Assembly (NCBI GenBank): GCA_026770585.1
Contig: MU646438.1
Coordinates: forward strand, 485,834 to 526,452
From: Baffinella frigidus
Taxonomy: Eukaryota > Cryptophyceae > Cryptomonadales > Baffinellaceae
DNA: 40,619 bases
Direction of reading: 5' to 3'
Shown: positions 4,201 to 39,395 of the stretch, in pieces
Layout of the letters: every line of letters begins with the position of its first letter
Numbering within the stretch: the first letter of the stretch is position 1
Position numbers and translations under genes: made by a program
Notes under the pieces: generated by a model
What the model was told of the DNA's origin: nothing
Databases searched by the model: none
Seen by the model: the letters and a program-made list of their open reading frames with translations, nothing else

Positions 4201-7200
4201 CCGCACGCGCTTTGCTCGCCGCGAATTCCCGCCGCACCTCCCCCAGCTCCTTCCGCGCCTGATCCAGAACCGACGCCGCGTGCTTCTCCACGTCGCCAAG
4301 CAGCTTCCTCAAGCCAGCCACCTCCTCCTCTGTCGATTCCGATCGCTCGCGGTCCTCCATCAGCTTCTCCCCTCCTGAACGCTTCCCCCGTTCCTCCGCA
4401 AGCTTCTTCCCGAGGCGGGCTGCCTCCAGTGCTGCAGCATCGAGGCTGTTCTTCTGAGAGACCAGCTCGCTCTCCTTCATCGCCTTGTTCGCAGCATCCA
4501 GCTCCGGCCGCATGTTCACAACCCCCTCCGCCAACCACCGCTCCTGAACCACGCCAGCCTGCACCGCCGCCAACTGATCATGCACCGCCGCCCCTGACGC
4601 CCACGCCGCGGCCAGCTCGGTCTGCAAGGCGTCCACCCTACCCCGCTCTTCCGCCAGAAGCCTCCTGCATTCCACCACCTTCCTCTCGAGATCCCGCCCC
4701 GTCGCGCGCAACGCGTCGGGTGTGACGATTTGAAGGGAGACGAGGTGGGTGTCGATCTTGGCGACGACGTCCGCGAGGCCTGCGGCGTGCTGCGACCCTT
4801 CGCGCTGCAGCCGCCCCACCTGCGATCCTCACCCCTGTTCAGCACCGCCAAGAGCCTCGCCCAACTTTAGCCCCGCCTGCGCGCACCTCACCCCTCGGCA
4901 GCAACACCTGCACGCCACACGATTCGTCAGCACCACGTTTGCGCGCCCCACCCCTCAGCAGCACCACCAAGCGCTTCACCGCTCGTCTACACCATCACCG
5001 TGTATCTCATCTGCCCCCATCCCCGCATCCCCCCTTGTTAGCACCACCAAGAGAGCCCCACCCCTCGCCGGTCTGCCCGCATCACGACGCCGAAGCCACT
5101 TCTGATCAGATCACGACAGCTCCTTCACGATACAGCGTGGTACCGTGGAGAAGAGCCTTTCTACATAAGATCATCTCTGCAAAGTATTAATTGATTGCTT
5201 TTGGCTCAACAAAATTTACTACACAATTGTTTTACTATTACTAGTATGGCCCAATCGTGTAGCAAATTTCGTTACCCTAAAGCAGTTAATTAACACGTTT
5301 GCAGAGATTCAAGAGCTACCCTTCAACTTGGCTCTGCCGTACCATCTCTTGAGATTCTGGGTTGCCCGGTAGTGATGCTGGGAATGAATCAAACCTGACG
5401 GTCTTAACGGAGGGGGTTGGGTTGGACCTCGTGGAGCACGTTCTGCTGGACCAGGTGGTCAGCCTCAAGCATCTTGCTCCACAGCTCCACTGCCTCGTCC
5501 ACCTGGATTGGGGTTTGGGGTTTGGGGATTAGGGTTTAGGGTTTGGGTTTGTGGTATGGGGTTTGGGGTTTAGGGTGTGGGGTTAAGGGTTTAGGGTTTA
5601 GGGTTCAGGGTTTATGGTTTATGGTTTGGGGTTCAGAGTTTAGAGTTTACCAGCGCCACCGTGCTCTTGCCGCTGTCTGGATCACTCGACCCGAACCATC
5701 CTGGATTAGGGTTTAGGATTTGGGGTTTGGGGTTTGGGGTAGGGTGTATGGTGTAGGGTTTCGTGTTTCGTGTTTCGGGTTTCGTGTTTCGGGATTCGTT
5801 TTCGTGCTTCGGGTTCCGGGTGTTAACCCCCTTGCCCTTGGCCCGTCTTCTTGAGAACTCGGTCCTTGATCGACGCGAAGAGGTCGAACACACGCCTCCT
5901 GTAAAAGAAGAGACGTTTATTGAACTATGACGTCGGAACATAAACTTGAGGTGTCCGGAGAGGGCTCGAACCAAGTGCTTCTTAGACTCTACGATACTCA
6001 CGCCTGTCAGACGTCGTGCGCGAGGGGAGGCTGTCAGCGTGTCGGGTCAAGGTTCGACGTCACGGGTGGAGGGCGCCGCTGGGAAGGATCCAGCGCTGGT
6101 ATCGCTTCAGATTCTGGTTGATGTCTTATCGCTTCAGATTCTGCTTGATCGTATCGCTTCAGATTATGGCCCATGAACGCGCAAGCAGACGTTCTCGAGC
6201 GCCAACGGTTTTCTCGGTGGGGTTCACAGCCGCGTTTGCGGCTAGGAGTCCTACCTCTGTCCCAGTTCAATTGATCTCGTAGATATTTCGCCCCCACCGA
6301 AATTTCACAGGTAAATTTTATGGGGAGGAGTCAAAATTCACCTTTGAAATTTCGGGGGGGGGGGGCGAAATATCTACGTGCCCAAATTAAATTGGGAAAG
6401 AGCCAGAAGTCCGCGGCGGAGGTTCCAGGTAGCAGCTCTATGCCGTCGGGCAGTGAGCTCTAGACAGTCACCAGGAAGGAGGGGCAAACCTGTCAGCGAT
6501 TTTGGCAGTCGCCATGCGCGTGATACACACGTCCATCTCCGCTCCCTGCACAAACAGAGCGTCGTCACTCCCCCATAACCTGTGGCCATATCCTGTATCC
6601 ATGGCGGGCATGGGACGCAAGATCGGCGTCAGAGCTTGGGCCATCCGGCTGCCACTATCCAGCCAGCGACCAGCAGCAAGATGTGCAAGATGCTGCCCTA
6701 CGGACAAGCGGGGGGCGCCGGGGCGCACCGATGAGTTCTTGAGCGTAAGGATCACGCCGACCCCTGCAGCGTCAGCCAGCGTCAGCCCTCGCTCCAAACA
6801 CCAAGTCGCCGGCCGGGCATCGAGCCACGCAGGGAAATTGGGCGTCGTGTGGTCAAGGAGCGGGGTCCCGAGGGGGCTGGGGAGCCGGATTGGTGTGGAT
6901 ATGCTCAATTTCCAATGGGTGGCTATTTACCGGGGTCGTCGTTGCCGACGAGGAGAGTGGAGACGTTTTCGGAAGTGGCTGCTTGGTCATCCACCGCGAT
7001 GATCATGTGCCCTGCGGCACCAAAGGGTCAGCGCTTCTGGCGTGCATGCGCGTCGCTGACGGAGCGCGAGGGGGGATACCTTTGTTGACTTGTGATCCCT
7101 GCGCCGGGCCGCCGGGAAGGATGCTGTCGATTCTGGTCCCGGAGAGCATGATCCCGACGGTCGAGCGGTTGCTCTTCCCCACATCGACGCCAGACGTGTG

Positions 7201-7383
7201 GTGGAACGCCATGTGCACGCACTGCGCGTCCTTCTGCAGCATGTGCGTCAGGCTCCCGCACAGCCGGCGCGTCTCCTCGATGTGACCCTGCAGATCGGGC
7301 ATTCCCTGCATCTCCGCGCCCCCTTGCCCCTCCGCGCGCGCCGTGGCGGCGCCAGCCGGCTGCGCGACGACCGTCCCGCTCAT
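722..7383 (-). CDS. Gene A: PDZ-domain plus long coiled-coil protein (3'-incomplete)
   Basis: Eleven exons join in phase: 7383-7080, 7011-6931, 6763-6729, 6545-6490, 5898-5828, 5700-5651, 5502-5428, 4819-2706, 2370-1903, 1455-1365, 778-722 (1134 codons, no stop reached). Residues about 75-158 form a PDZ fold: carboxylate-binding loop STVGIML, then KGHMIIAVDDQ and LLVGNDDPG, closing with DVCITRMATAKIADR. A conserved linker RRVFDLFASIKDRVLKK follows. From residue about 225 the protein is heptad-rich coiled coil with internal repeats (MQGSVDQERSS, KMRTELDEVRKELAASK), interrupted at about 930-1050 by a Thr/Pro/Arg-rich stretch. The start is the first ATG before the PDZ and matches paralogue B in exon length. 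Likely a scaffold or cytoskeletal protein; the exact role is not recognised. The 3' end lies beyond the left edge or in unreadable sequence. Confidence 0.8.
779..860 (-). repeat. telomere-like tract in gene A last visible intron
   Basis: TTTAGGG-type repeats (GTTTAGGGTGTAGGATTTAGGG) begin a few bases upstream of the exon 11 acceptor. On the gene's sense strand they read CCCTAAA. The rest of this intron (861-1364) holds no exon I can support, apart from the TAAC microsatellite at 1117-1302. Confidence 0.7.
1117..1302. repeat. (CTAA)n microsatellite
   Basis: Repeats of TAAC/CTAA with minor interruptions lie in the intron between gene A exons 10 and 11. Simple tandem repeat, no other content. 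Confidence 0.9.
1695..1882. repeat. (GTGA)n/(CAGT)n microsatellite
   Basis: A CAGT block (1695-1718) is followed by a long GTGA array grading into GT and GA dinucleotides. It lies in the intron downstream of gene A exon 9; the exon 9 donor is only about 20 bp away. Confidence 0.9.
4840..5060. repeat. degenerate C-rich repeats in gene A intron 7, shared with gene B
   Basis: Several degenerate copies of a unit like CCCCTCAGCAGCACCACCAA. The segment GCTCGTCTACACCATCACCG and the following CCCCGCATC (4980-5035) match 22447-22500 in the corresponding intron of gene B. No reading frame is kept, so this is shared intronic sequence from before the duplication. Confidence 0.6.
5172..5310. repeat. AAATTTACTACAC hairpin element (family 1), copy 1
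   Basis: Imperfect inverted repeat: outer arms ATCTCTGCAAAG and GTTTGCAGAGAT, inner arms AAATTTACTACAC and GTGTAGCAAATTT, around a TTACTAGTA-like centre. It lies in gene A intron 7. Its closest relative, sharing the outer arms, is at 33043-33176. Confidence 0.75.
5503..5650 (-). repeat. telomere-like intron between gene A exons 6 and 7
   Basis: 148 bp from donor GTAAAC to acceptor ATCCAG, almost wholly degenerate CCCTAAA-type repeat on the sense strand. Paralogue B has no intron here: its exon at 23084-23282 reads straight through. Removing it joins ..STVAL to VDEAVELW, matching B's ..SSAGL-VDEAVELW. Confidence 0.8.
5701..5827 (-). repeat. telomere-like intron between gene A exons 5 and 6
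   Basis: 127 bp from donor GTTAAC to acceptor ATCCAG. The sense strand is a run of CCCGAAACACGAAA and CCCTAAACCC-type units. Gene B again has no intron at this point. Removing it joins KKTGQGQG to GWFGSSDPDSGK, the counterpart of KKTDRRESGGWFGS in B. Confidence 0.8.
6283..6383. repeat. GAAATTTCG/CGAAATATCTA hairpin element, copy 1 of 2
   Basis: Inverted repeat: left arm TAGATATTTCGCCCCC plus CGAAATTTCAC, right arm TGAAATTTCG, poly-G, CGAAATATCTACGTGCCC. A second copy with the same arms lies at 8931-9030. MITE-like; gene A intron 4. Confidence 0.65.
6490..7383 (-). CDS. Gene A exons 1-4: the PDZ module
   Basis: Four exons of 304, 81, 35 and 56 nt encode the PDZ domain. Gene B has four exons of exactly the same lengths and phases (25334-24236), which confirms the splice sites. 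One difference stands out: the usual PDZ GD turn before the fourth strand is GH in A and GD in B. All introns here are GT-AG. Confidence 0.82.
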
Positions 7384-7656: not shown

Positions 7657-10600
7657 ATGTCCCGTACTATGCTGCGAGGCCTCGGCGCTTCCCTCTGTGC
7701 CTCGGCGCGCCGATCCGCGTTCGCCGGAGGAGGGCGGATGCGGGGCAGGGCGATTTCCACTCCTGCCGCGCCTGTACCGCGCAAGTGGGACGTTTTCGAG
7801 GCGGACTCAAGCATGTATATGCCGGCCAATTCGACGTCGAAGCTGGTTGTGTTTGTGCGCCACGCCGAGGGGCTGCACAACGCCGCGCATGAAGAGAACG
7901 AGAAGCTCTTCTGGTCCGAAATGTGGAACTCTCCGAAGCTCTGGGACGCTCCGCTGACGGATCTCGGCAAGGAGCAGAGCAGGCTATTGGGAGAGGAGCT
8001 CATGAACGAGGGCGTCAACGTTGACCTCGTCGTCGTCTCGCCGCTCACGCGCACCCTTCAGGTGCCCCGCACCGGACATAATTTCGACCACCCCTTCCTG
8101 CCTGCCTCCCCCCCCGTTCGTCAGGATGCTTGGCCTGAGCATTGAGGTCTGGGGGGGGGGGGGTCCCGAAATTCGACCACCATAATTTGGTGTATTATGC
8201 AGCGGCTTGGGCTGGGCGGCCGCAGGCACCCGACGTGAACCAGATTGGGTAGAACCAGATCGGGCCTTTTCACCATTCCGTGAATTGTCCGGGTTCGCCT
8301 GTGTAATTTACTACAGGTAGCCAGATCGATCTGGTAACCCTCGGGTGGCTGGTGGGGGTGGGCACGTCTCGTCCCACCCTATTTGACAATTTAGTAAACC
8401 GCTGTTTCCCATGGCAGACCGCGGCGCTGAGCTTCGGGGCAGTGGACCCGATGGTGCCGATGCTCGCGTGCGAGACGTGCCGGGTAACCCCTCAACCCTC
8501 AACCCTTACCCCAAGACCCTAAACCCTAACCCTAAACCCTAACCCATAAACCCTCAACCCTTCACCCTTGTCCCGAAGCCCGAAACCCGAAACCCGAAAC
8601 CATAAAACCGACACCCTAAACCCTAAACCCTGAACCCTAAACCCTGAACCCTAAACCCTAAACACTAAAACCTAAACCCTAAACCCTAAACCCTAAACCC
8701 TGAACCCTAAACCCTAAGCTCCAAATCGTAAACCCTGAACCCTAAGCCCTAAGCCTTAAACCCTAAACCCTAAAACCTAAACCCTGGACCCCAAACCCTA
8801 AACCCTAAACCCTAAACCCTAAACCCTAAACCCTAAACCTCCAAACCCCTAGGAGCGGATCGCCGTGTACGCCTCCGAAGGCCGGTCGAAGACCTCAGAC
8901 CTCGTCGTCCACTGGCCCAAGGTGGTTCCTAGATCTGGATATTTTGCCCCCCCCGAAATTTCACAAGTAGATTTCTTGTCAAAAATTGAATGTGAAATTT
9001 CGGGGGGGGGGGGGATATCTACGTGCCCAACTTTACTCGGACAGATCTAGGATTCGAGAGAATGGATGGAGAGAATCCACCCTGGAGGCAACTCTTGGGA
9101 AAATCTGAAGTCAGCTCTCATACAAATGCACTCGGATTCAAACCATCAATCTGCCCATAAGTTGCATCCAGGGTGGGCAGCGCGTGTTTCAATGTAGCGC
9201 GTGGGAATGCAGCGCTTGGCCGCTCCTCGACTTTGCCCGCTGGCCAAAGGTGATTGGAGAGAATGGCGAGAATTCAGCGCGTGCTTCAATGTCCAGCTCT
9301 ACGTCACACGGTTTGGTCTCGCCGCTTTGGCGAGACCGGAAGTCAATTCTCCGGGGATTTGGTGCATATCCGGTCAACTTTTGGAGTGAAAACTATCAGT
9401 CAACCCGAGTTAGGTAGAGCTAGAATGTACCGCGTGCGAATGCAGCGCGTGGCTGCTCCAAGACCTCCCACCTCGTCGCCCACTGGCCCAAAAGGTCAAT
9501 TTCCCCACACGCGGGGGGTGGGTAGGGGAGGGGGGGGTGGCGGGAGAGCGCCGGAGCAGAGCTGCGACTGGCGTGTCATCCTTTCGCTGGAATCACGCGC
9601 TTTCATCTCGAAAGACAGCTGAATCATTTCTCCAATTAGCGTTTTCATTTAATTAGGATGCCTCATTAAATTTGCTATGCCCTGACTAATCTCTCCTTTG
9701 CAACCTCCTATTGAAAAGGAACTGATTCAGTTATCTTCCGAGATGAGCTTGGCCGATGACGACGAAACAGTTGCCATCGGCCTCCATGAGAAGAGAGGGG
9801 AGCGTGCTCGCGGGTCGGGGGGGGGCGCTCTAAGTGTATGGTTCGACGTCATATGGTCAATCAAATCTCGCCACCGCAGGTGGGGGGGGGGTTGTTCTGA
9901 AACATCGGACCCTTTTTCCCCCTTCTAAAATCTGACACTTTTTTTTTCGTTGGCCCTTTTTTTCTGTTGACCCTTTCCCCCCCTTTTGCAGGTAAACTTC
10001 TCAGAGGTCGTGTCGGAAGAGGATCCGATGTTTGAGCACAAGGTCCTCCCCCCACCACACGAGGCTATCTATGCACTCAGAATAAATGTCAAGTGTAGCG
10101 TTTTGTGGGAAGCTGGTCACGTGTCCGATCGTTTTGCGTTCGGACACGTGAACAAACATATAATATTACTACACAAACTCCTACAATTAACATGTATTGT
10201 GCGTGCATAGAAAGCCTCGTGTGGAAACCCGCGGGCGCGTTTCCATGTCCTAGCTCTACATCATTTAACCCATGTGTACCATAAGCGGAGTTGAGTGAAC
10301 CGAGTCAACGTTCCGGCTCGTACAGTAATCCGGGTGCCTCGTCGAATGCATTGAGCGCAGGACTGCCTGCCAAAACTCACCCTGGGTTGCGACACTATGA
10401 AAGTACAAGGAGCATCTAGATATATTTATTGAGGATCCCAGATAAACTGAGGCAGAAGTAGATCTGTTCGCATGGAGCGTGTGCAGGCTGGGTGGATGTG
10501 GCGCGCCAGCGTTTGCGCGCATACATCAGCCAGACCAACGTTTCGGTGTTGAAGCCTCGTCGCTAGTCCCTGCACCCTGACCACCACCCTTGGCTTCCCC

Positions 10601-13600
10601 CCCACACACAAAGACGATCGTACCGCACACCCAAGGCCGTGCATCAACACGCCCCCGCCGCGCAGAGACTTCCTCGAGAGTCATAAACCCGCCTAGACCC
10701 TAAACCCTGATCCCTACACCCTACACCATATACCATTAACCATGAACCATAAACCATGAACCATAAACCATAAACCATAAACCATACACCATAAACCATG
10801 AACCAGAAACCAGAAACCAGAAACCAGAAACCAGAAACCAGAAACCTTAAACCCCAAGCCCTGAGCCCTAAACCCTAAACCCCAAACCCTACACCCCAAA
10901 CCCTAACCCCTAAACCCTAAACCCAAAACCCCAAACCCAAAACCCAAAACCCCAAACCCTAAACCCTGGATATGACAAGAAACGGACGAGGCGGTCAGGA
11001 AGCAGGTGCTGCTGTTTCTCGACTGGCTCATGAAACACCCGGAGAAACGCCACACCCTGAATATGTACCTGCATTTGTGAACATGCCCCGCCACACCCTG
11101 AATATGTCAGGAAGCGGATTCAGCGGTTGGGGCTTAAATCTTCAAGCCTAAACCCCTGACCCTGGATACGGCAGGAAACTGACGAGGCGGCCGGGGAGCG
11201 GGCGTTGGTGTTTCTCGACTGGCTCATGAAACGCCCGGAGGAGTGTACCTGAATATGCCCCGTAATATGTACCTGAATATGCCCCGTAAACTCTGAATAC
11301 GTACGTGAATATGTGAATTCGGCGGTTGGAGCCTACACCCTAAACCCTAAACCTTAAACCCTAAACCCTCAACCCCAAAACCCAAACTCTGAGACCCTCA
11401 CCCTGGATACGGCAGGAAACGGACGAGGCGGTCGGGGAGCGGGCGCTGCTGTTTCTCGACTGGCTCATGAAACGCCCAGAGGAGCGCATCGCCGTCGTGT
11501 CCCACAGGTGTGCCCTCTCCCTCCATCCCTACACCTTGGCGGGGCAGGAAACAGACCATGTGGTAGGGCAAAGGGCGCTGGTGTTCCTCGACTGGCTGGT
11601 GACAAGCCCGGAGGAGCGTCGTGTCCCACAGGTCCATTCTCGCCCGGGAAACACGCCAAACTTCTAGGGATTTGAGTTCCCGGCAATAATGTGTTATCTG
11701 TACCACGAAACGCTTTTACCAGGCGCGTGTGTTTCTCGACTCGCTGATGAAACGCCCAGAGGAGCGAGGAGCGCATCGCCGTCGTGTCCCGCAAGTGCCA
11801 CACACCAGACTACACAGGGATTTCTTGAATACCCCTTACACACTCGTCCATGGGATCCTACGGTAGGCAATATCGTAGGGACATAGGGGGGTTCCTACGG
11901 AGAAGGTAACTGATGAAAAAGACCGGAAGAACGCATCGCCGTCGTGTCCCACAGGTCCATTCTCGCCCGGGAAACAGGCCAAACGTCCAGGGATTTGAGT
12001 TCCCGGCAAGAATGTGTTATCTGTACCATAATGTGTTATCTGTACAACGCTTTTACCAGGCGCGTGTGTTTCTCGACTCGCTGATGAAACGCCCAGAGGA
12101 GGGAGGAGCGCATCGCCGTCGTGTCCCTCAGGTGTCACACACCAGACTACACAGGGATTTCTTGAATACCCCTTACACACTCGTCCATGGGATCCTACGG
12201 TAGGCAATATCGTAGGGACATAGGGGGGTTCCTACTGAACAGATAACAGATGAAAAAGGCCGGAAGAGCACATCGCCGTCGTGACCCACAGTCCATTCTC
12301 GCCCGGGGAAAGGCTAGGAATTTGTGCCATTCCTGGCGCAATAATGTGGAATCATTCCAAAGTTGATGATCACCCGGGAAACGCGCCAACAGTCAGAAAA
12401 TCTCGCCCGGGATGGAGGGAGAGGGCAGATAGGGAGGGATGGCGAGAGGAAGAGCGAGCAGGAGAGGGGCGGCGGTGTTGGGGAGAGAGCGGCAGAAGTC
12501 ATGCAACATACGAAGAGTGCAAACTGACGCTATTCGTTGCATTCCACGCGTATCCGGCAGGCGGTACGGCAATCGTGCGGCCAATTGGCCTTGCCGTTTC
12601 TGGTGTGGGATTGCGCGCGTGAGCAGAGTGTTGTTGATTCTGCGTGAGATGGGGCGCTCTGATTCTGTGTGAGATGGGGTGTTTTCTGATGTGAGACACG
12701 CGTGAGCAGCGTGTTCTTGCAGCAGCTCTGCATGCAGTGCCAAGACACCCGAAACCCGAAACCCGAAACCCGAAACCCTGAACCCTGAATCCTGAACGCG
12801 CTTTCGCAGCGTTTTCCTGCAGCAGCTCTACATGCAGTTCCAGGACACTCTTCCCAAGGAGTTCTTCGAGGCTCGCCAGGTCCCCCCCCCCCCCTTCTGG
12901 AATCCACACCCTCTCTCACACACTCCCTCCTACCCCTCTCCTCTCCCCTGCAATCCTCACCCCTGCAATCCACATCCCTTCCTGCACACCTTCCTACCGG
13001 GATTACTCGAAATTCAGCACACTCACCTGAGGAACGTCAGGTTGCCCCCCAACCCTGCAACCACCCCCCCCACCCACCCTCCTACTGGGGTTACTGGCGT
13101 GTCCCCTTTTCCCTGCAATCCACCCCCTCTCACACACACCCTCCTACCGGGATTACTCGAAATAAAGGACACGCACCGGCCTATGGTCCTACTGTAGGGC
13201 GAATCCTAGGAACCGAGGAGCCCAGGGACGCTGCGTGCCCTTATGCGCGGGTTACCCCTGTGCAGGGGTACCGCGCCTATACGAAAGCGCCTCCTCCTAG
13301 CACCCTACAGGGGGGGCATGCCTATGGCCGTACGGTGGTCCTACGGGGGGGGTAGTTTCTTATCAGCGAGATAACCCTGTAATGGCCCGAGGCGGGCGCA
13401 TCCTAACCCCGGCCCTCACAGAACGTCTCACACGCATCCCTTAAGTGGCCGGGGGGTCCAAATAGTCCCCCGGAGGTCCTGGGCAGGTGCAAGGGCCCTA
13501 CGGTAGGGTGTTTGCGCCGAATGGCCACTTAAGGGGTATCATACCTTACGCGCACCAGCGTCCCTCCTCGAGTGTGAAGCCCTGAATGCCTCGAGTGCAT

Positions 13601-13804
13601 ACTGCACGCACAGAGTCACTGTGTAAAGTCACTTCATGTGTAAAGTCACTCCGTGTGTAAAGTCACTCCGAACACTCCTACATCTTGTCCCCAGAGAGTC
13701 CCTCAGCCTCAGCCCTGAAAAACAAACCCCTGGAGCAGGACTTCGCAAAGATGAAGGTGGTGGTGGTCTGCCCAGCCAACGGGGGCAAAGGCGAGGCTCA
13801 ATAA
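7657..13804 (+). CDS. phosphoglycerate-mutase-like histidine phosphatase
   Basis: Seven exons join in phase: 7657-8061, 8418-8483, 8853-8921, 9992-10042, 11416-11507, 12810-12879, 13739-13804 (272 residues). This is the branch-1 histidine phosphatase superfamily, closest in pattern to plant and fungal PGM-like proteins. The RHG motif is RHAEGLHN (R68, H69); SPLTRTLQT supplies the conserved Arg (R132); the acid is in CRE (E158); the second catalytic His is in AVVSHS (H227). The C-terminal exon gives DFAKMKVVVVC, the family's closing strand. Residues 1-40 are rich in Arg, Ala and Ser with few acids, which suggests a mitochondrial or plastid presequence. Substrate cannot be told from sequence. 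Exons 3, 5 and 6 each have decayed extra copies in the neighbouring introns; I chose the copies with intact acceptor, frame and donor. Confidence 0.9.
8484..8852 (+). repeat. telomere-like intron 2 of the phosphatase
   Basis: From donor GTAACC to acceptor CCCTAG the intron is almost entirely AAACCCT repeats with point variants (AACCCGAAACC, AACCCTGAACCC). The C-rich strand is the transcribed sense strand. Confidence 0.85.
8931..9030. repeat. GAAATTTCG hairpin element, copy 2 of 2
   Basis: Same arms as the element at 6283-6383: TAGATCTGGATATTTTGCCC and CGAAATTTCAC on the left, GTGAAATTTCG, poly-G and ATATCTACGTGCCCAA on the right. It begins about 10 bp downstream of phosphatase exon 3. Confidence 0.65.
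9213..9252 (+). pseudogene. decayed copy of phosphatase exon 3 (a)
   Basis: GGCCGCTCCTCGACTTTGCC followed by CGCTGGCCAAAG|GTGATT resembles the 3' half of exon 3 and its donor, with a deletion and several changes. It is in intron 3 and is not needed for the reading frame. Confidence 0.5.
9290..9421 (-). repeat. TAGCTCT...CAACCCGAGT element, copy 1
   Basis: Inverted-repeat element: TAGCTCTACCTAACTCGGGT (minus strand) at one end, AGCTCTACGTCACACGGTTT at the other. The interior (AACTTTTGGAGTGAAAA, GGAAGTCAATTC) recurs inverted at 23727-23858; related pieces occur at 30049-30192 and 32715-32818. It fits a MITE-like family. Confidence 0.5.
9450..9493 (+). pseudogene. decayed copy of phosphatase exon 3 (b)
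   Basis: The sequence encodes KTSHLVAHWPK followed by a GT, a clear copy of the exon 3 end (KTSDLVVHWPK). It lacks a matching 5' part and acceptor. In intron 3. Confidence 0.6.
10690..10972 (+). repeat. telomere-like tract in phosphatase intron 4
   Basis: AAACCCT units interspersed with variants AAACCAT and AAACCAG, ending about 6 bp before the first copy of exon 5. C-rich strand is sense. Confidence 0.8.
10978..11050 (+). pseudogene. phosphatase exon 5, copy 1
   Basis: Encodes TDEAVRKQVLLFLDWLMKH in frame and then diverges after PEKR; no donor follows. The acceptor is altered (GACAAG instead of GGCAG). Confidence 0.7.
11174..11243 (+). pseudogene. phosphatase exon 5, copy 2
   Basis: A good acceptor (TACGGCAG) and TDEAAGERALVFLDWLMKR in frame, but it runs into a stop after PEECT, without the IAVVSHS end or a donor. 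Confidence 0.7.
11548..11631 (+). pseudogene. phosphatase exon 5, copy 4
   Basis: Encodes TDHVVGQRALVFLDWLV, then an 8-bp deletion relative to the intact copy (11416-11507) removes the codons for the catalytic motif and shifts the frame. The acceptor and the CCCACAG|GTCC donor survive. Confidence 0.7.
11640..12305 (+). repeat. about 330-bp tandem duplication holding phosphatase exon 5 copies 5-8
   Basis: Two units share CCATTCTCGCCCGGGAAAC, GAGTTCCCGGCA, ATGTGTTATCTGTACCA, ACGCTTTTACCAGGCGCGTG and TGGGATCCTACGGTAGGCAA in the same order. Each holds two exon 5 fragments: 11723-11793 with 11911-11954, and 12061-12131 with 12249-12291. The fragments keep VFLDSLMKRPEE or the CATCGCCGTCGTG stretch but are frameshifted. 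Confidence 0.75.
12710..12749 (+). pseudogene. phosphatase exon 6, extra copy
   Basis: Preceded by GAGCAG, it encodes VFLQQLCMQCQDT, against VFLQQLYMQFQDT in the intact exon at 12810-12879. It ends in CCCGAAACCC repeats with no donor. A weaker fragment may lie near 12615-12650. Confidence 0.65.
12746..12800 (+). repeat. short telomere-like tract before phosphatase exon 6
   Basis: CCCGAAACCCGAAACCCG and CCCTGAACCCTGAATCC units lead directly into the exon 6 acceptor (TTTCGCAG). C-rich strand is sense. Confidence 0.75.
13260..13383. repeat. GGTACC-type hairpin element (family 2), copy 1
   Basis: Imperfect palindrome: left arm CAGGGGTACCGCGCCTATAC and GAAAGCGCC, right arm TTTCTTATCAGCGAGATAAC and CCTG, centre with CCTACNG runs. 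In phosphatase intron 6. Confidence 0.65.
13437..13541. repeat. TTAAGTGGC-type hairpin element (family 3), copy 1
   Basis: Terminal inverted repeats ATCCCTTAAGTGGC and GCCACTTAAGGGGTAT enclose a palindromic GGGCCCTACGGTAGGG centre. Other copies: 13870-13985, 14869-14970, 28540-28606 and 29083-29150. Confidence 0.7.
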
Positions 13805-13985: not shown

Positions 13986-14213
13986 GTGTAGAGTCACTCC
14001 GGGCATCTTACACGGCGCTGTATCATCCTACACGGCGCAGTATCCCCAGACTCTCGTGCCCTCTGGTGAGGCGTGACGCTGTCGCGTTATCGTGCTCGTT
14101 GCAAAAAGGGGCCTTCTCGTTCTAGGCCCAGGAGGGATGTGGTCCGTCTGGTGAATCTTCGAAGCCTAAGTGGATCTACTTTGGAAGCTGCATAACCGTG
14201 CATGCGTAGGTGC

Positions 14214-15364: not shown

Positions 15365-15374
15365 NNNNNNNNNN

Positions 15375-15728: not shown

Positions 15729-18700
15729 TCAATTTGCGTCCCCGGTTCCCTCGCGCGCCGCCCCCGCACCAGCAAGCACTCGCTCCTCTCTCTCACGCTC
15801 CAGCCGCCCGCGCGTCTCGCTACTCCACCCAGAGATCTCCCCCAACCGCCGCTCAAGCTCCACCGTCCACTCCACCGACTCCGTCTCAAGCTTGGAGACA
15901 CTCTCTGCCACCTCCGCCTCAAGTCGCTCAACTTCGCCCTGGAGGCGATCCACCTCGCCTTGCAGAGCAGCGATCGTGTGCTCCGACGCGTCCCGTACCC
16001 CCCCCTGGATCGATCGCTCCTGGTCCATGCTGCCCTGCATCGCCGCCAAGCGATCCGCCCCAGCCTTGACCTTCTCACGCTCCGCCGCCAGCTCAGCCAC
16101 CACCGCCCCCGCCCGTTCCTTCTCAGCCGCGACATTCGCCTCTTGCGCTGCGAGCGCCTCCATCAGGCTCTGCGCATCATGTTCCAACACGTCGGCGCGA
16201 TCCTTCTCGACGGCAAAAGAGCGCGAGAGCATTTTCCCGTGCTCCAGCAGCCGCGCCACATCCTCCTTCAGAAACTCAATCTGCTTCTGCGGCCGCGCCG
16301 GCGACCCTTCTGATTCACCGTTCGAGACATCCTCTGCCAACGCCGCCTGTAGACGCGCAACTTCGCCTTGGAGCGCCGCCATTGCCAACTGCTTTGGTGC
16401 GTCCGCCTCGGAAGACGCTTCGGCTGTGAGGCGCTCCACTGCCGCAGCCACCCCGGCAAGCACGCTCGCCTTGCTGCCCCCAATCCCCCCCCGCACCCCT
16501 TCCAGCTCCGCACCCATCTCCTCGCGCACCTGCAATCGTTTGAGGTGCCAAGGTTTAAGGTTTAGGGTGCCAAGGTTGAGGACTGAGGGTACCAAGGTTT
16601 AGGGTTTAGGGAATCGTTTAGGGAAAAGTCAAGGTTTAGGGTTGAGGGAATTGTCGCCGCCACCGCCCACGGACCCACCTATGGTTCTCGTTATCTCCGG
16701 GCAACAACACGAGGGTGTGTTGCAAGGCTGGACAGGAAGGGGGTGCAATAAGGGGTGGGGCCAAGAAGGGGTGGGACCGGCAACGCCACCGCCCACGGAC
16801 CCACCTCGACTTCTCATCAATTCCAGACGACAAAAGGGGGAGGGTCTTGGGGGAATGTGTTGCAAGGCTGGAGCACAAGAGGTGCAAGAGAGAGAGGGAG
16901 AGAGACAGAGAGGGAGAGAGACAGCGATAGAGAGAGAGAGAGAGAGAACCTGCGCCACCTCGGCCGCAGCGCGACGAAACTCATCGGAAAGTTTCTGCTG
17001 CAGCTCCGCCGCCTCCCCAAACCACTCATCCGTCTTCACCGCCTGCGCCGCCAGCTCCCCCTCCAACCTCACCACATCCCCCTTTGCCGCCGCACCCTCG
17101 CCGTGGCTTGCCGAAAGCCTCTGGCGCAGGTCAGTGACCTCGCCGTCGAGGTGGACGAGAGAGACTTGCAGCCCGATCCGTTCCGAGCGGAGTGTCTCGG
17201 CCTCGCGGCGTGCCTGGTTTAGGGTTTGGGGTTGAGGGTTCCGGGGTTGAGGGTTCCGGGGTTTCGGGGTTGAGATTTAGAGTGAGGGATTAGGGTGTGG
17301 TTGGAGCTTCAGGAGCTTCGGGGTTGAGGTTTACAGTGTGGGGTTGGGGTGTGGTTTACGCGTCAGAGGTTTCGGGGTTGAGGTTTAGAGGTAGGGGGTA
17401 GGGTGCAGGGTGCGCGCCTCGCCCTCATCTTCGAGCCGCCCGAAGTGCTTGTCCTGCAACTCCCCCAACTCCCCACGCACCCTCTCCAGCTCGCCACCAT
17501 TCTCCACCGCTTTTCCAACAAGTTCTTGGATGTGTTTCGTGGAGGCGTCGAGCTCGGCCGTGCGGAGGCGGTGCGCTTGCGAGGCGTCGCTCAGCTGCCT
17601 GTCGGCTGCGTTGAGCGCCACCTGGTGTGGGGGTGAGGGGTCAGAGTGAACCTCAGCCCTGAACCCTGGAGTAGAAGGCAGGTGGGGCACTGCGCGAACG
17701 ACTGGTCGAGTAGCTGGACCTCGAACACGTGCAGTACCCTCAGCGTGAGCAACACCTGCACACCCCACGCTGTCAGGACTCTGTCAGCTGCGTTCCCGAG
17801 GCGGGCCTATCTATCCCGAGGCGGGCTTAGGGTCGCATGCGAGGTCCGAAAGGAAGCAGGGCTTTTCTGCAGAACCAGTTCCAGCGTCCGCCTATGGTGG
17901 GAGTTAAAAGAACCTAAAGAACCCTGAAGAGGAAGAGCACCTGCAGGTGGTCGCCACGGACCGAGGGTTGCATGCGAGGAAGAGCACCTTAATCTCAAAC
18001 AAAGCTTTCTAAAAAGGGTTTTTGTCAACGAAATTTACTACACAATTTGATCTTACTAGTAATAGTAGAGCGTTTGTGTAGTAAATTTCGTAGGCGGGAG
18101 ACCCTTTCTAGAAAGGCTTTTCCGAGTTGAACCTGCAGGTCGTCGCCACGACGCTGCTCCTCCACCAAACGCCGCGAAAGACTCTCCCCATTCTCCAGAC
18201 GCCGTGCCGCCTGATCATTCTGAGGATCGAGCTGCTTCTGAAGCCCAGGAGACGCCGAGTCTGTTTCAGCGTTCGAGACACGCTCTGCCAACTCCGTCTT
18301 GAGGCGCACCACCTCGCCCTGGAGAAAAGAGATCGTCTGCTCCGAATCCAACGTGTCCCGCACCCCCCCCTGGATCGCATGCTCTGCCGCAGCCTTCAAC
18401 TCCACTACCGTGGCCTTGCTCGCTTCCAGCTCCTTCCGAACCTCCTCCAGCTCCGCACGCATCTTCGCCGTCTCCTCATCCGAGGAAGATCGCTCCTGAT
18501 CCATCGCTGCCAACGCCGCCACCGTCACCTCACCCGCAGCCAGCCTCTCCTCCAGCACCCGCACCATCTCCGCCTCCGAGGAAGATCGCGCCTGGTCCAC
18601 GCTGCCCTGCATCGCCGCCACCCGCGCGCCCTCTCGCACCTGCTCCCCAACCTCCGCCAACTCCCCCCGCGCCGCCTCAAGCTCGCCCGTCCGGGTGGCC

Positions 18701-21700: not shown

Positions 21701-24700
21701 CCACCTGTCGAGTGGATTTCAAGAGGGCGTCGTGAGGATTCCAGAACCGTCGAGAAAAGTGGCATCGACCCAGGGATTCCAAAGCCCGTCGCGCTGCAGG
21801 CGGTCCACCTGCCAGCGCGCAGAGGTGCAAGTCCATTCAGCCGCTTTCAATTTGCTCAAAATATATATCCTGTGACTTCTGAAATCCTGGTCCGATTTCC
21901 CTTTAATCGACGGTTCTGGAATTCTTTCAAGAGGGCGTCGTGAGGTTTCCAGAACCGTCGAGAAAAGTGGAATCGACCCAGGGGTCCCAAAGTTACGTTG
22001 GACGAAGGTTCCCACGGGCCCGCTTCGGGACCCCAGAACTCGGTACATGCAGAAAGCGTACTACGCGGGAGAGCTACATGTCATTTTACGCCCTGCATCC
22101 ATCTATTATTTTCCCATGAAATATGCAAAAGTCGCCGGAAATACCCACAAATAATTGACTTTGACGGAAAAGTAACCGCAGGATATGGGGGGAAATGGCT
22201 CCAAGAAACCACCTAGCCCTCCCCCGTAGTACGTTCGAGGAGCACCTATTTGGACGTGACTCAGTACAAAACTTGGGCTTGACTAAGTACAAAATACTAA
22301 AATCTTATCCATTGCTATGGATTACAACACGAACTTCGCCCGGAAGTCCAGGCGAAAAGGAACTGGGCCGCTGCTCAGAAGTGGATGTTACAGACGTGAG
22401 GTAAACATGTCCCTACGCAAACATCCCGCGAGGGCCCCCTCCCCACCGCTCGTCAGCGCCATCACCGTATCTCTCCTGTGCCCCCCTCCCCGCATCTCGA
22501 CTGCCAAGGCGCTTCCTACGGCACCTGAATCAAGCTGCACAGTGGTACCGTCAGGGGGGGTGGGCTCATCCGGGGATATCATTTAATTTAATTAAAATGG
22601 GCAACGAACTTTACTACACATGAGGCTCATTTTGGTGAACAGTAAAGATTTTTTTTAGTAAATTTCGTTTCGTTAAATGATTGTCCCGGATGAGGTCTCG
22701 CGTCTGCCGCATTTCGTCCGGTACTTAGGCCCCGAAACACCGAAACTCGAAACATCAAACACCGAAACTCGAAACATCATCTTACACCCGATACACTACC
22801 CGAAGCCCGAAACACTACCCGAAAGCCCGAATCACTACCCGAAACACGAAAGACTACCCGAAACATTACCCAAAACACTACCCGACAATTCTCCAGCAAA
22901 ACCTGTGCGGGGTGGGGTTGGACTTATCCGGGGAAGCCTATTTTTCTTTCAGAATCTGATGACGAAAATTACTACGCACATGCTACAATATTACAAGTCA
23001 GAACGAGTCGTGTAGGTTTCCCTGGATAAGGTTCCCAAGGGGAAATACCCCCCTCCAGCAGTCTGGCGTGGTGGGGTTGGGACCTCGTGGAGCACGTTCT
23101 GCTGGACCAGGTGGTCAGCCTCAAGCATCCTGCTCCACAGCTCCACTGCCTCGTCCACCAACCCCGCCGAGCTCTTGCCGCTGTCTGGGTCCGTCGACCC
23201 GAACCACCCCCCCGATTCCCGCCTGTCCGTCTTCTTGAGAACTCGGTCTTTGATCGCTGCGAACAGGTCGAAGATGCGCCTCCTGTGGTGGGGGCGTAGG
23301 GTTCAGGGTGGAGGGTGCAGGGTGGAGGGTGGAGGGTGTAGGGTGTAGGGTGCAGGGTGTAAAGTGTAGGGTGTAGGGTGTAGGGTGTAGGGTATAGGGT
23401 GTAGGGTGTAGGGTGTAGGGTGTAGGGTGTAGGGTGTGGGGTGTGGGGTGTGGGGTGTAGGGTGTAGGGTGTAGGGTGTAGGGTGTAGGGTGTAGGGTGT
23501 AGGGTATAGGGTGTAGGGTGTAGGGTGTAGGGTGTAGGGTGTAGGGTGTGGGGTGTGGGGTGTGGGGTGCGGGGTGAAGGGTGTAAGGTATAGGGTGTAG
23601 GGTATAGGGTGTAGGGTGTAGGGTGTAGGGTGTAGTGCCTTCCTCCCCCCGGTCACGGTTGCTGAGGACCGTGCGCGGGACCAGCCGCGCATCCCGTCAT
23701 ACGTCGCACGCGAGGGGAGGCTGTCTAGCTCTGCCTCACTCGGGTTGACTGATCGTTTTCACTCCAAAAGTTGACGGGTTTGCACCAAACCCCCGAGGAA
23801 TTGACTTCCTGTCTCAAAATTTTGATGGAACCAGATTAATTCAGGGAGAGCTAGGCTGTGCGTCAGCTTGTGGAGTCAAGAACCGACCCCGGCGCTCCAG
23901 TTGCTGTACGCGCACGCAGACGCGCTTGAGCCTAACGTTTTGTTTCGGTAGGGTCCACATCCGCGTGGGGTTTGTTTCCAGCGTCTGGGTAGCAGTTCGG
24001 AGTGGGGCGTGTGGTAACGCCCCCCCCACAGGTTGTTGGTGCGCCTCCCCAGGGATGAGGCTTCGTGAGCTGTAGGACAGTAGGGCGGGGTTCATCCGGG
24101 GAAACCTTTCTTCCATTTGGTGGCAATGAAAATTACTACACAGTTCGTTCTTACTAGTAATATTAAATCATTCGTACAGTAATTTTCTTTGGAATCAAAT
24201 GAAAGAAAAATAGGTTTCCCCGGGTAAGGGTAGACCTGTCGGCGATCTTGGCAGTCGCCATGCGCGTTATATGCACATCCATCTCCGATCCCTGCACCAG
24301 AGGTTTCTCAGAGGGCGGTTCTGGAGAATGAACGATTTTTTTTAGGATTTTTCCTGAAAAATGAACGATTTTTTGTTAGTTTTTTTGGACCGGCCAGCCC
24401 TGGCAGAAATTATGTGCTGCACCAGCGGACAGTCACTGTTTTAGGTCTTTGATTTTTTTGTAACTCCCGCCATAGGCGGACACTGGAACTTCGCATCAAG
24501 CCCCCCGGTGCAGAAGGATCGCATCAAGCCCCCCGATGCAGAAGGATCGCAGCAGAAACCGGCTCAAGCCTCCGGCTGCGACTGTCCAGCCAGCTGCCAT
24601 GAAATCTGCGAGAGGCTGCTCTACGGACAAGAGGGGGGGGGCATGGGGGGCACCGCTGAGTTCTTGATCGTCAGAATCACGTCGACCCCTGCGTCAGCCA

Positions 24701-25334
24701 GTGTCAGCAGCCCCAACCAGACTGAGACAGAGCCAGGACTCGACCGCCTGCCCGCGCTCCATTCACATGAGTGGCCGCCCGGGCATCGAGCCACGCAGGG
24801 ACCTTGAGTGGGCGGTGGGCGGGATCCGGAGGGGGCTGGGGAGCCGGATTGTTGTGGACATGCTCGATGTGTGGGTGCTCACCGGGGTCGTCGTTGCCGA
24901 CGAGGAGAGTGGAGACGTTATCGGACGTGGCCGCTTGGTCATCCACCGCGATGATTATGTCCCCTGCGGCACCAAAGGGTCAGCGCTTCTGGCGTGCATG
25001 CGCGTCGCTGACGGAGCGCGAGGGGGATACCTTTGTTGACTGGTGATCCCTGCGCCGGGCCGCCGGGAAGGATGCTGTCGATTCTGGTCCCGGAGAGCAT
25101 GATCCCGACAGTCGAGCGGTTGGTGTTCCCCGCATCAACGCCAGACGTGTGGTGGAACGCCATGTGCACGCACTGCGCGTCCTTGTGCAGCATGTGCGTT
25201 AGGCTCCCGCACAGCCGGCGCGTCTCCTCGATGTGACCCTCCAGATCAGTCTTACCCTGCATCTCCGTGCCCCCTTGCTTCGCTGCGCGCTCCATCGCAT
25301 TGCCAGGCGGCTGCGGGAGGGGCCACCTCCTCAT
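15729..25334 (-). CDS. Gene B: PDZ-domain plus long coiled-coil protein, paralogue of gene A
   Basis: Exons: 25334-25031, 24963-24883, 24688-24654, 24291-24236, 23282-23084, 21704-21610, 21137-21098, 20740-18133, 17621-17418, 17213-16950, 16529-15729 (stop TGA). The first five give the same PDZ and linker as gene A (TVGIMLSG, KGDIIIAVDDQ, ITRMATAKIADR, RRIFDLFAAIKDRVLKK). VGRLQRDGSQHAAGL then leads into coiled coil with internal repeats (MDQERSS, ELEEVRKELEASKA, LEQGLGEVRGSLGAT). All joins are in phase except 21610 to 21137, so one small exon or a different donor is missing there. The 17418 donor is GC, not GT. The C-terminus is less certain: gene A has about 200 more residues of a different type at its end. 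Probable scaffold or cytoskeletal protein; function not recognised. Confidence 0.78.
16530..16660 (-). repeat. telomere-like tract in gene B last intron
   Basis: GTTTAGGG units and variants (GTGCCAAGG) begin right at the exon 11 acceptor. The rest of the intron (16661-16949) holds a roughly 90-bp direct duplication (CACCGCCCACGGACCCACCT at 16667 and 16788) and a GA tract. Confidence 0.75.
16880..16949. repeat. (GA)n tract at gene B exon 10 donor
   Basis: GAGA and GACAGAGA repeats directly abut the donor of exon 10. Confidence 0.85.
17214..17417 (-). repeat. telomere-like intron between gene B exons 9 and 10
   Basis: The whole 204-bp intron is degenerate repeat (TTTGGGGTTGAGGGTTCCGG and similar). 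Its donor is GCGCGC, making it a GC-AG intron; joined, the frame reads ..RLEDEGE-ARREAETLRSER, a continuous heptad pattern. Confidence 0.6.
18004..18117. repeat. family 1 hairpin element, copy 2
   Basis: Outer arms GCTTTCTAAAAAGGGT and ACCCTTTCTAGAAAGGC, inner arms CGAAATTTACTACACAA and TTGTGTAGTAAATTTCG, centre TTACTAGTAATAGTA. It lies in gene B intron 8, about 15 bp from the exon 8 donor. Confidence 0.85.
21718..21990 (-). repeat. tandem duplication with a decayed exon copy upstream of gene B exon 6
   Basis: TCAAGAGGGCGTCGTGAGG and CCAGAACCGTCGAGAAAAGT recur about 190 bp apart. One unit also carries, on the minus strand, CAGGTGGACCGCCTGCAGCG, a copy of the exon 6 start (CAG|GTGGGGCGGCTGCAGCG). 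Confidence 0.6.
22440..22510. repeat. intronic segment shared with gene A intron 7
   Basis: CACCGCTCGTCAGCGCCATC and CCTCCCCGCATCTCGACTG match the gene A segment at 4976-5035. It is followed in both genes by GTGGTACCGT and a family 1 element. The frame is not conserved. Confidence 0.55.
22563..22695. repeat. family 1 hairpin element, copy 3
   Basis: Outer arms CTCATCCGGGGATATCATTT and AAATGATTGTCCCGGATGAG, inner arms CGAACTTTACTACAC and TTAGTAAATTTCG. Gene B intron 5. Confidence 0.8.
22735..22885 (+). repeat. CCCGAAACACTA-type degenerate repeat
   Basis: Units such as CGAAACACCGAAACTCG and CACTACCCGAAACAC. This is one of the few tracts with the C-rich strand antisense to its host gene (B). 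Confidence 0.6.
22923..23031. repeat. family 1 hairpin element, copy 4
   Basis: Ends CTTATCCGGGGAAGCC and GGTTTCCCTGGATAAG, interior ACGAAAATTACTACGCACA. The right inner arm is shortened to CGTGTAGG. Gene B intron 5. Confidence 0.7.
23283..23637 (-). repeat. GTGTAGGG array in gene B intron 4
   Basis: About 355 bp of near-perfect GGGTGTA repeat with phase shifts and variants (GGTATAGG, GGTGTGGG). It directly abuts the exon 5 acceptor (CCACCACAG on the minus strand). It translates to an LHPTPYT repeat in one frame, which I do not regard as coding. Confidence 0.9.
23727..23858 (+). repeat. TAGCTCT element, copy 2
   Basis: TAGCTCTGCCTCACTCGGGT at the left and a shorter AGAGCTAG inverse at the right; interior TTTTCACTCCAAAAGTTGAC and GGAATTGACTTCC match 9290-9421 inverted. 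Confidence 0.55.
24091..24229. repeat. family 1 hairpin element, copy 5
   Basis: Long arms: TTCATCCGGGGAAACCTTTC and CCATTTGG against CAAATG and AATAGGTTTCCCCGGGTAAG; inner arms GAAAATTACTACACAG and CGTACAGTAATTTTC; centre TTACTAGTAATATTA. It ends 6 bp from the exon 4 donor of gene B. Confidence 0.85.
24236..25334 (-). CDS. Gene B exons 1-4: the PDZ module
   Basis: Exons of 304, 81, 35 and 56 nt, identical in size and phase to gene A. The exon 4 peptides (GSEMDVHITRMATAKIADR here, GAEMDVCITRMATAKIADR in A) differ at two residues, although the N-terminal 20 residues have diverged. The PDZ is therefore under selection in both copies. Confidence 0.82.
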
Positions 25335-26214: not shown

Positions 26215-29200
26215 CTACAGCTCCAGAAGCCCATCGGTGACGTCCTTCTTCCCCGCTTTCCCAACCCCCGCCGCCAGCAACCGCTCCCGCAGCAGCCGCT
26301 CCCGCATCTCCGTCTCCATCCCGCGCCCCAGCAGCTCCTCCAGCTGCGCCCCATCCGGCAACCCCTTCTCCCCCGCGCCCGCCCGCGCCGGCGCCTCCTC
26401 CCGCGCGTGGCTGGGCGTGGCGTGGCTGGGCGTCGCCATACGCGGTGTCCCGGGCCCCGACGGCCCCACCGCCGCGCACCGCGGCGTCCCCGGGCCCGCG
26501 CTCCGCCCCGGCGTCCGCCCCGGCGTCCGCGCGGGCGTGCCGCGGTACGACGCGCGCAGCGACGTCCCGAGCGGCGTCGAGTCCCCCGCCTGCTTCCCGA
26601 GCTTCGCCGCGAGCGCGCGCGCAGCGGCTGAGAACTGCGGGGTGCCGGGTGCGGAGCGCGCGGGGGCGTGTTTGCCGAGGCCCGTGTGCTTCGCGGCCAG
26701 CGCGGATTTCTCGACCTGCTTCCGGTGGAGCTTTTCTGCCATCTGCTCCTTGCCCGTTGCTCCTTGCACCTGATCCGGGGATGGTGTGAGGACCTAGGCT
26801 AGTTTCGCAAGGCGTCAGCACTGAATGGCTTTCTCGCCACTCTTTTAGATAGCTTCGTGGTACAAATTTTGAACACAGGCAATCTAAAAGTCTTTTGACT
26901 CCCGCGAATTGTAAGATTTGTACCACGAAACATCCAAAAGAGGGGCGAGAAGGCCATCCAGGGCTGACGCCTTCGGTAACGAAGTCTAGGACGAGCCCGC
27001 CTCAGGCCGTAGATCTGAGTAAATGACCACCGAGCGGCCCGAGGCGGGCTTGTCCTATACTAGCTCTTCACAACCAGGGCACTCGGTAAACGTCGCGGGG
27101 GACAACTGCACTCACCACTTTGCACGACCCGAACTCCTTCAAGTCAATTCCCTGAAGGTTGTCCTGGAAATCCCAGGACAGCCATCTAGTGGAATATGGT
27201 ACCAAAAGGTCGAATACTTAGTGTGGTCACACACATCGCATGTTTCGTGAAAAAGTCGTACGTGAATCACCCATAGGACCCTACGGTAGGCCATCCCGCA
27301 TGGACGTAGGGTGGTCCTACGGATATTTTAACCAATTCTTGCTTGAAATCCAACCAAGAATATCTTCGTAGCCCGCTGTGTGATCAACGCGAAAATCTGC
27401 CAAGCAGCCCCGCAGGACAGAAAACTTCGCAAAAGGAACGCCTCCGGGCCAGGGAGAAGCAATCATGCCGAAAGGACTCAGGGTAGCGTACCTTACTGCT
27501 GATACAAACGTTTTGCAAGCATTGAGTCAAAGATCTTTCGGGGTTTGAAAAGGCCATGAGATGTAAAAAGTGTACCAACATGGCTCCGCAAGGTCCCAGG
27601 GGTGGGCTCCGCAAGGCCCCAACCGCTGAACGCTTTCTGCATGAGCGAGAAGCGTGTGGCAGGAACAGAGAGGTTCAGTACAGTGGCAGAAAAAAGAGTC
27701 ACTGGACAGAAAGTTGGCGCGCACCTTGAAGGGCTGGAAGTTGGGCAAATCGTCGTCCGGGAGGATCAGCGGCGTGCCGTCCACACTCCCCCACGTGAAC
27801 TGCGGCGCGTCGTCCACCCCCGGCGCCGGGGACGGCGTGAGCAGGAAGTTGAAGCCCCCGACGCGCGGCGAGGCGGCTACCTGCTTAAGGCCTTAGGGTT
27901 TAGGGTGAAGGGTTTGGGGTTGAGGGTTTGGGGTTTGGGGTTTAGGGTTTAGGGTGTAGGGTGTAGGGTTGAGGGTTGAGGGTGTAGGGTTAAGGGTGTA
28001 GGGTGTAGGGTGTAGGGAGAAGGGTGTATGGTGTAGGGTGTAGGGTGTAGGGTGTAGGGTGTAGGGTGTAGGGTGTAGGGTGTAGGGTGTAGGGTGTAGG
28101 GTGTAGGGGCGGCACCCCCCCGTCGCGGCTTGGCGTGGCGTTGGTGTTCTTCCCCGTGATGGTTTGCTGGCCCTGCTTCGCCATGTTGAGCAGGAACGAT
28201 GTGCCGATGCGCGTCGCCGCGCTGTTTGGGATTGGGGTTTGGGGTTTAGGGTTTGGGGTTTGGGGTTTGGGGTTTGGGGTTTGGGGTTTGGGGATTGGGG
28301 ATTGGGGTTTAGGGTTTAGGAGTTGAGGGTTTTAGGGTTTAGGGTTTAGGGTTTAGGGTTAAGCCCGTCAGCCAACCAACCAATCCCAGAGGCAGCGCCA
28401 GGGGTCTCTGGTTCAGAACCATGCAAACCAGCGCGTGATGTTAGGCATGGCACGTTCTGGCCGTACGCGTGCACTTGGTTTATGGCGAGGGTACAGGGAT
28501 GATGGTTTAGGGTATCCCATCAGTTGGGGGGTCAAAATTCACCCCCGATAGGTCCTAGGCAGGGCCCAGGGCCCTACGGCAGGGCGTATGAGCCTGACGG
28601 CCACCCACACAGAGGACTTCGAACGGATGTTGAATAACCCCTGAGCGGTAAGACCCAGGACCCTACGGTAGGCAACCCGTACGGACATAGGGCGGTTCCT
28701 ACGGATAAGGTAACAGAATCTCGGGCAAATCCTGCCCGAAAGCCCGCTGTGTCGTAGCCCGCTGTGTCGTAGCCCGCTGTGTCGTAAGGCGCGCGCATCG
28801 CGACCTCGGGAGCCTCCACGCGGCGGTATTTTCAGGGCTTACCACACGGTGGACTACGAACCTTTCATCAAAAGTTAAGTTATCCAGGAGGCAGTTAACT
28901 TTAAGAATTTTATAATACAAATTTGGTCACGTTACCGCTAAATCTAGCGTGGTCGAAACACTCGTAGCCTACCGTCTGCAGGCTACAGGGCTTAGGGTAT
29001 AGGATATAGGGCTTACTTGTTGGTGATCTTGGGCGCGCGCATCGCCACTTCGGGAGCCTCGGCGCGATAGCAAAAATGACTCGCGAAAGGTCCTAGCCAG
29101 GTCCCAGGGCCCTACGGCGTATGAGCCTCCTGGCCACTTGAGGGATAGGCACGTGGGGAAAGGCTATTGGAGCCATCAAGGGATAGGTCGTACTTGTTGG

Positions 29201-38449: not shown

Positions 38450-38534
38450 GAACAGGTCCACAGCGGTGGGTGTCCCGTGTTCGCGAGAAACCCCGGTTGG
38501 AAGGGCCGCGTCACCTGTTGGAAAAGCAGCAGGA

Positions 38535-39342: not shown

Positions 39343-39395
<53 letters not shown>

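Follow-up and report, generated by a model that had tools for sequence, protein, structure and literature searches.

Two consecutive introns of a gene from the cryptophyte Baffinella frigidus consist of telomere-like repeats from one splice site to the other, and neither is present in the neighbouring paralogue of that gene. To account for them, we lean, with modest confidence, towards the view that telomere-type DNA has repeatedly been inserted into genes of this alga, probably as filler in the repair of breaks, and that at least the second of the two introns was born by insertion into an exon. The analysis covered a single stretch of 40,619 nucleotides, referred to below as the window, and the positions of the features discussed are collected in Table 1.

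Table 1. Features of the window, numbered from its first nucleotide.
Feature	Position	Strand	Remarks
Gene A exons 1-4 and their introns	6490..7383	-	PDZ-domain part, Pfam PDZ below cut-off
Gene A exon 5	5828..5898	-	71 nt
Gene A intron 5 (A5)	5701..5827	-	127 bp, GTTAAC...ATCCAG, GT-AG; CCCGAAA/CACGAAA, then CCCCAAA-type heptamers
Gene A exon 6	5651..5700	-	50 nt, repeat intron on either side
Gene A intron 6 (A6)	5503..5650	-	148 bp, GTAAAC...ATCCAG, GT-AG; CCCTAAA/CCCCAAA-type heptamers
Gene A exon 7	5428..5502	-	75 nt
PGM-like gene	7657-13804	+	span 6.1 kb
PGM-like gene intron 2 (PGM2)	8484..8852	+	369 bp, wall-to-wall telomere-like repeat, GTAACC...CCCTAG
Telomere-like tract in PGM intron 4	10684..10968	+	
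Gene B coiled-coil part, probable repeat intron	17214..17417	-	204 bp, GC donor needed (GC...AG), less certain
Telomere-like tract in the span of gene B	22731..22880	+	G-rich in the sense strand of B, nearest modelled splice site 203 nt off
Gene B exon equivalent to A exons 5-7	23084..23282	-	199 nt, single, intronless
Telomere-like tract in gene B intron 4	23289..23635	-	347 bp, CCCTACA type in sense strand, acceptor 6 nt away
Gene B exons 1-4 and their introns	24236..25262	-	PDZ-domain part, Pfam PDZ above cut-off
ESS-2 (Es2) intron 4	27881..28115	-	235 bp, wall-to-wall repeat, GT...AG, frame restored
Telomere-like tract up to the acceptor of ESS-2 intron 3	28222..28363	-	
Degenerate tract in the plus-strand gene without exon models	35627..35762	+	G-rich in sense strand

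Introns 5 and 6 of gene A

The paralogous genes A and B lie about 18 kb from each other; each has a PDZ domain followed by a coiled coil, and a phosphoglycerate-mutase-like (PGM-like) gene sits between them on the opposite strand. All four upstream intron positions are common to the two paralogues, and gene B lacks both A5 and A6. An earlier sequence-only reading of the window had described the coordinates, the exon and intron lengths and the common ATCCAG ends of this region, and all of these proved correct. The spliced exons 5-7 of gene A (196 nt) align with the corresponding exon of gene B (199 nt) with a difference of one codon in length, so that the claim that removal of the two introns yields the protein of B to within one codon also holds. 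Both introns have GT...AG ends and their removal restores the reading frame, from which A5 was derived to be in phase 1 and A6 in phase 0; we infer that both are spliced in gene A, with indirect support from the dN/dS values given below.

Degenerate CCCTAAA-type heptamers fill A5 and A6 wall to wall. The lag-7 match rate of the interiors is 0.76 for A5 and 0.80 for A6, far above the chance values of 0.36 and 0.39 (means of 5,000 mononucleotide shuffles per intron interior; sd 0.04; maxima 0.52 and 0.54), which bears out the earlier description of the two introns as almost purely repeat. The gene A protein finds its best match in a protein of Baffinella frigidus (67% identity, with 60% of the query covered); no gene A transcript was present among the homologues found in two protein searches (6 and 2), and no relative of the protein was found in the viral contigs. 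A search for more cases of presence and absence between the coiled coils of A and B was uninformative, because the coil segments align many-to-many.

Telomere-like tracts across the window

Telomere-like tracts total 4,768 of the 40,619 bases (11.7% of the window), a figure that includes one apparently spurious 55-bp coding stretch and for which two merged tracts were split by hand; the same search on one shuffled window returned zero tracts. In all, 22 introns were modelled at both ends: six in gene A, four in gene B, five in ESS-2, six in the PGM-like gene and one in the coiled-coil part of gene B. This last intron was included because of its repeat, and the other 21 were not selected on repeat content; A7 and B5, whose acceptors are badly placed, were left out of the count. 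Repeat runs wall to wall in A5, A6, PGM2 and ESS-2 intron 4 (4/22; lag-7 0.71-0.83), the intron of the B coiled coil (17417-17214; lag-7 0.52) is a fifth, probable repeat-built intron, and five further introns contain a tract (B4, ESS-2 introns 2 and 3, and PGM introns 4 and 5), the remaining 12 being tract-free with lag-7 values of 0.22-0.34. Intron 4 of gene A has no tract, unlike the tract-bearing intron 4 of gene B. The wall-to-wall introns, with lengths of 127, 148, 235 and 369 bp, have the kind of unit in common and differ in unit variants and ends, the splice sites alone being shared. More repeat-bearing introns, outside the 22, were seen at about 16530-16948 and in the plus-strand gene after 31,790.

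Several other repeats were observed in the window. Near the end of the contig, 1.6 kb without a gene model (38530-40149) are dense in G-rich telomere-like tracts; the stretch may be DNA of subtelomeric type or else a minus-strand gene that was missed. Short elements that resemble non-autonomous DNA transposons, their ends similar to AAATTTACTACAC and AGTAAATTTCG, are found repeatedly within introns and in intergenic DNA (for example at 5180-5310, 18000-18110 and 33045-33180), as are hairpin-like elements whose arms are close to GGGGTACCTCGCTCAT(A/G)AGAAA (for example at 14210-14340, 15130-15250 and 37990-38120), both recognised by eye. Perfect or near-perfect AAACCCT runs were also seen by eye between the apparent reading frames of unrelated viral contigs (L001, L002, L004, L005 and L006), often with AAAGGATAGAAAATG following them; six viral contigs with such runs were considered as relatives and, by eye, look unrelated.

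Orientation of the tracts and suitability for splicing

The sense strand is C-rich in 14 of the 16 in-gene tracts of at least 50 bp (sign test p = 0.004, an approximate value because tracts within one gene may be non-independent). This count excludes the 55-bp coding stretch, four tracts shorter than 50 bp (three C-rich and one G-rich) and three tracts outside genes; when the two tracts of the unmodelled plus-strand gene are removed, 13 of 14 are C-rich. The G-rich exceptions are the tracts at 22731-22880 and 35627-35762. A splice site lies within 11 nt of the tract end in 11 of the 14 C-rich tracts. An identical bias in orientation would also be expected if G-rich RNA, which forms quadruplexes, were avoided.

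A perfect CCCTAAA array contains neither GT nor AG, so that few or no rival splice sites arise inside it, while in the opposite strand each of these dinucleotides occurs about 14 times per 100 nt. The real introns follow this pattern: internal GT/AG counts in the sense strand are 0/1 for A5, 0/0 for A6, 2/5 for PGM2 and 0/2 for ESS-2 intron 4, against 21/4, 21/11, 48/42 and 47/29, respectively, in the antisense strand. Judged by eye, donors in the window show little conservation beyond GT, and acceptors are CAG in 21 of the 22 introns and TAG in PGM2. Given such weak donor requirements and CAG or TAG acceptors, a C-rich insert flanked by G can yield G/GTAAAC...CCAG/G or G/GTAACC...CCCTAG/G (slashes at the splice junctions).

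The PGM-like gene and ESS-2

The spliced PGM-like protein matched 72 proteins when used as a query, and among the best named ones are a Hemiselmis transcriptome protein (59% identity) and, lower, a Cryptomonas curvata entry (45%), with other algae also represented. Together with the Baffinella frigidus match of gene A, these relatives point to nuclear cryptophyte DNA. One match, P0002 (JGI), comes from 4 contigs, none longer than 1,284 nt; its 245 residues show 100% identity with the spliced model over six junctions, and it lacks PGM2. Five of these junctions, PGM2 included, had been fixed before P0002 was seen, and the sixth was adjusted to it. Since the contig is at most 1,284 nt long and the gene spans 6.1 kb, it is best read as cDNA, and PGM2 is very probably spliced from RNA, although P0002 might conceivably stem from a retrocopy without introns. 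Two further relatives, P0008 and P0009, are continuous over the PGM2 site and, if genomic, hint at another case of presence and absence for PGM2; P0008 looks genomic at both ends.

The PGM exon-5 unit is repeated in tandem several times within introns 4 and 5 (10967-12130), and the copy matching P0002 is at 11416-11507. The tracts ahead of the first three copies measure 285, about 25 and 73 bp (the second by eye and below the threshold), so that such repeats also lengthen or shorten within existing introns.

The gene that carries the two repeat tracts at 27881-28363 encodes a protein related to the splicing factor ESS-2 (Es2). Against Pfam Es2 its joined model reaches 153.8 bits. The alignment with 8c6j_4, a structurally characterised ESS-2 homologue, extends across the area of the intron-4 junction; it is firm immediately downstream (SPRVGGF) and weak immediately upstream. 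Exon 3 of this gene lies within a tandem array (29236-29562; 115-bp unit, 2.8 copies), and at least two exon-3 copies have a short CCCCTCAACCC tract and an AG in front; duplication of the exon driven by the tract is possible.

Presence and absence of A5 and A6 among homologues

Two homologues of gene A besides gene B can be read at the A6 site. P0080, from an ENA contig, reads GSAAPDSSTSTVALVDEAVEVW unbroken and thus has no intron there, with 14 continuous codons upstream of the site (GSAAPDSSTSTVAL, then VDEAVEVW). P0079 reads STRVALVDEAVELW, likewise without an intron at the site; it resembles A for only three codons upstream (VAL) before departing, which leaves room for an intron nearby. 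Beyond the conserved exon neither runs on into the coil; both share a mutually similar PLxPERxRPVxxPTLVPA, and they depart from the family sequence upstream as well. Because they exit conserved exons on either side, as when reading into introns, P0079 and P0080 are taken to be genomic. A third homologue, P0078, spans the whole region and was left out of the polarity analysis, its transcript or genomic origin not being distinguishable.

The absence of A6 from two copies besides B is strongly indicated. A6 is missing from three of three other readable copies (B, P0080 and P0079, all paralogues rather than orthologues), and if P0079 and P0080 are genomic, a gain in A takes one event where loss takes at least two. 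This favours gain of A6 in gene A. P0080 leaves the family sequence just upstream of GSAAPD, near the A5 site, where it may carry an intron, and for this reason the direction of change at A5 stays unpolarised. The sequence-only reading had proposed an alignment of all family members to separate gain from loss; the copies compared here favour gain for A6 and leave A5 unpolarised. The earlier proposal that telomere-like DNA inserted into an exon became an intron fares differently for the two introns: it gains support for A6, with its absence from B, P0080 and P0079 and with the comparable PGM2 missing from an RNA-like contig, and is unproven for A5.

Origin of the repeat introns

We infer a route through break repair together with a selective filter on orientation. 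A ready telomeric fragment would be captured as filler in end joining at a double-strand break, and an insert whose sense strand is the C-rich one would be a nearly ready-made intron, splice-silent inside. A G beside TAAAC or TAACC would supply the GT donor, and a G after CCCTA or CCCCA the AG acceptor; reversed inserts, each unit of which holds a GT and an AG, or inserts without flanking Gs would not be cleanly removed and would be lost. At the junctions of A5, A6 and PGM2 a G stands on either side, and inspection by eye shows no nucleotide that is in register with the repeat. Priming by telomerase was considered and rejected, the in-register nucleotides being missing at all three introns; working splice sites would, for their part, select for exactly the flanking G. 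Repeats could also have overgrown an ordinary intron, given the length change in the PGM tandem copies. A bolder form of the proposal, which we offer only tentatively and regard as rather doubtful, is that new introns keep arising from telomere-type DNA in this lineage, with hundreds made, in a single orientation, a G on each side being sufficient.

It is also conceivable, though in our judgement unlikely, that A5 and A6 are ancestral introns that repeats overgrew in gene A, and that gene B lost both exactly through recombination with reverse-transcribed mRNA. Intron loss mediated by cDNA predicts adjacent losses, and the differences at A5 and A6, being adjacent, match this; the variation of tract length among the tandem copies of PGM intron 4, the introns with partial tracts (5/22), the possible ancestral intron near the A5 site upstream of which P0080 breaks off, and the break in P0079 three codons upstream of the A6 site speak for the same explanation. 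It requires, however, at least one additional exact loss, the A6 site being empty in P0080 and P0079, and gene B retains its four upstream introns, the fourth of which bears a repeat tract of its own. Exact loss in B, which the sequence-only reading had named as its alternative, is thus made less likely by the absence of A6 from P0080 and P0079. We give little credence to the idea that gene A is unspliced in this region, either as a decaying copy or through misassembly of low-complexity DNA. Repeats make assembly difficult, the window contains N gaps (15365-15374 and 29563-29877) and the search found no gene A transcript, but the dN/dS between A and B is 0.34 in exons 5-7 (66 codons) and 0.37 over 200 codons, values given without a significance test; in addition, the PDZ exons are intact, the coiled-coil part is an open frame of 720 residues, both introns are GT-AG, and a comparable repeat intron, PGM2, is missing from the RNA-like contig P0002.

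Least probable of all, in our assessment, is that a transposable element with a telomere-like body, that is, a true introner, made A5 and A6. The same kind of unit does occur in introns of unrelated genes, its presence does differ between paralogues, and some introner families, in the available parts of the survey, lack target duplications or inverted ends (PMC9860276). The junctions of ESS-2 intron 4 also carry a gapped direct repeat of 9-10 nt, at a level reached by 0.024 of 462 mismatched pairs; against this, one such case in 22 introns compares with about 0.5 expected, A5 and A6 stand at 0.73 and 0.98 of the null, and no significant target-site duplication was found at the junctions of the 22 introns relative to these 462 pairs. 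No terminal inverted repeats (at least 8 nt) were found at the ends of any of the four wall-to-wall introns, whose lengths and unit variants differ and whose ends are unshared except for the splice sites; six short inverted pairs were detected, all in the A region, one of them a palindrome over the A5 donor. The lack of terminal inverted repeats and of significant target duplication speaks against an introner of the transposon type. The earlier suggestion that the introns could represent a new kind of introner is, in the transposable-element sense, unsupported, with the qualification that some introner families have neither feature.

Relation to known systems

Our preferred explanation, insertion of telomere-type DNA at breaks, joins two known processes. 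Interstitial telomeric sequences at double-strand breaks (PMC2246262, PMC6410037) are, in the portions of these papers available, internal telomere-type arrays set against an empty counterpart, and the same is seen here: tandem repeats that are telomere-type by unit sequence (TTTAGGG class) stand at an internal site, and the homologous site is empty in B for A5 and A6 and in P0080 and P0079 for A6, all of them paralogues. The array described here differs in lying within coding sequence, in being bounded by splice sites and in having ends without in-register microhomology. In mammals, according to the same portions of PMC2246262, at least one in-register base is present at the break in 67-80% of informative species-specific telomeric insertions, and a share of such insertions likewise has none; the term 'intron' occurs in that paper once, in the reference list only. 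Intron gain by break repair (PMC3443670, PMC4202315) resembles the present case in that filler at a break becomes a new intron with the frame kept, and differs in that the filler here is a telomere-type repeat, recurrent across genes. The term 'telomer' does not occur in the main texts of PMC3443670, PMC4202315 or PMC9860276.

Introners, as described in the available parts of PMC9860276, are likewise recurrent introns with shared sequence whose presence differs among homologues and whose splice sites may come partly from the target; of the families that allowed a judgement, 49 of 130 were reported there to have target duplications and 72 of 177 to have inverted ends, and neither feature was found here. 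According to the same parts, low-complexity families were removed from that survey after manual examination, so that any class built from telomere repeats would have been dropped with them, and the silence of the survey is evidence neither way. The lineage-specific introns of the chlorarachniophyte Amorphochlora, as far as the accessible text of PMC12730881 describes them, were apparently gained and half of them contain simple repeats, as here; these repeats are (AT)n rather than telomere-type heptamers, and the authors do not, in that text, ascribe them to introners. Introns made of telomere repeats were not described among the literature matches listed, which cover open-licence papers and leave absence unproven. 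Since both break-repair intron gain and telomeric insertions are known, the unusual and informative element is the source, a telomere-type repeat.

Significance

The source of new introns is still an open question, and most gains have lost the trace of their source before discovery. If the explanation is true, repeat introns that are recognisable, directional and splice-silent would name their own source and predict a countable strand bias, and they would supply presence/absence differences between neighbouring paralogues. They would also link chromosome-end DNA to the birth of introns, through a class invisible to surveys that exclude low complexity. Our analysis suggests that telomere DNA, when it strays into a gene, may turn into a new intron.
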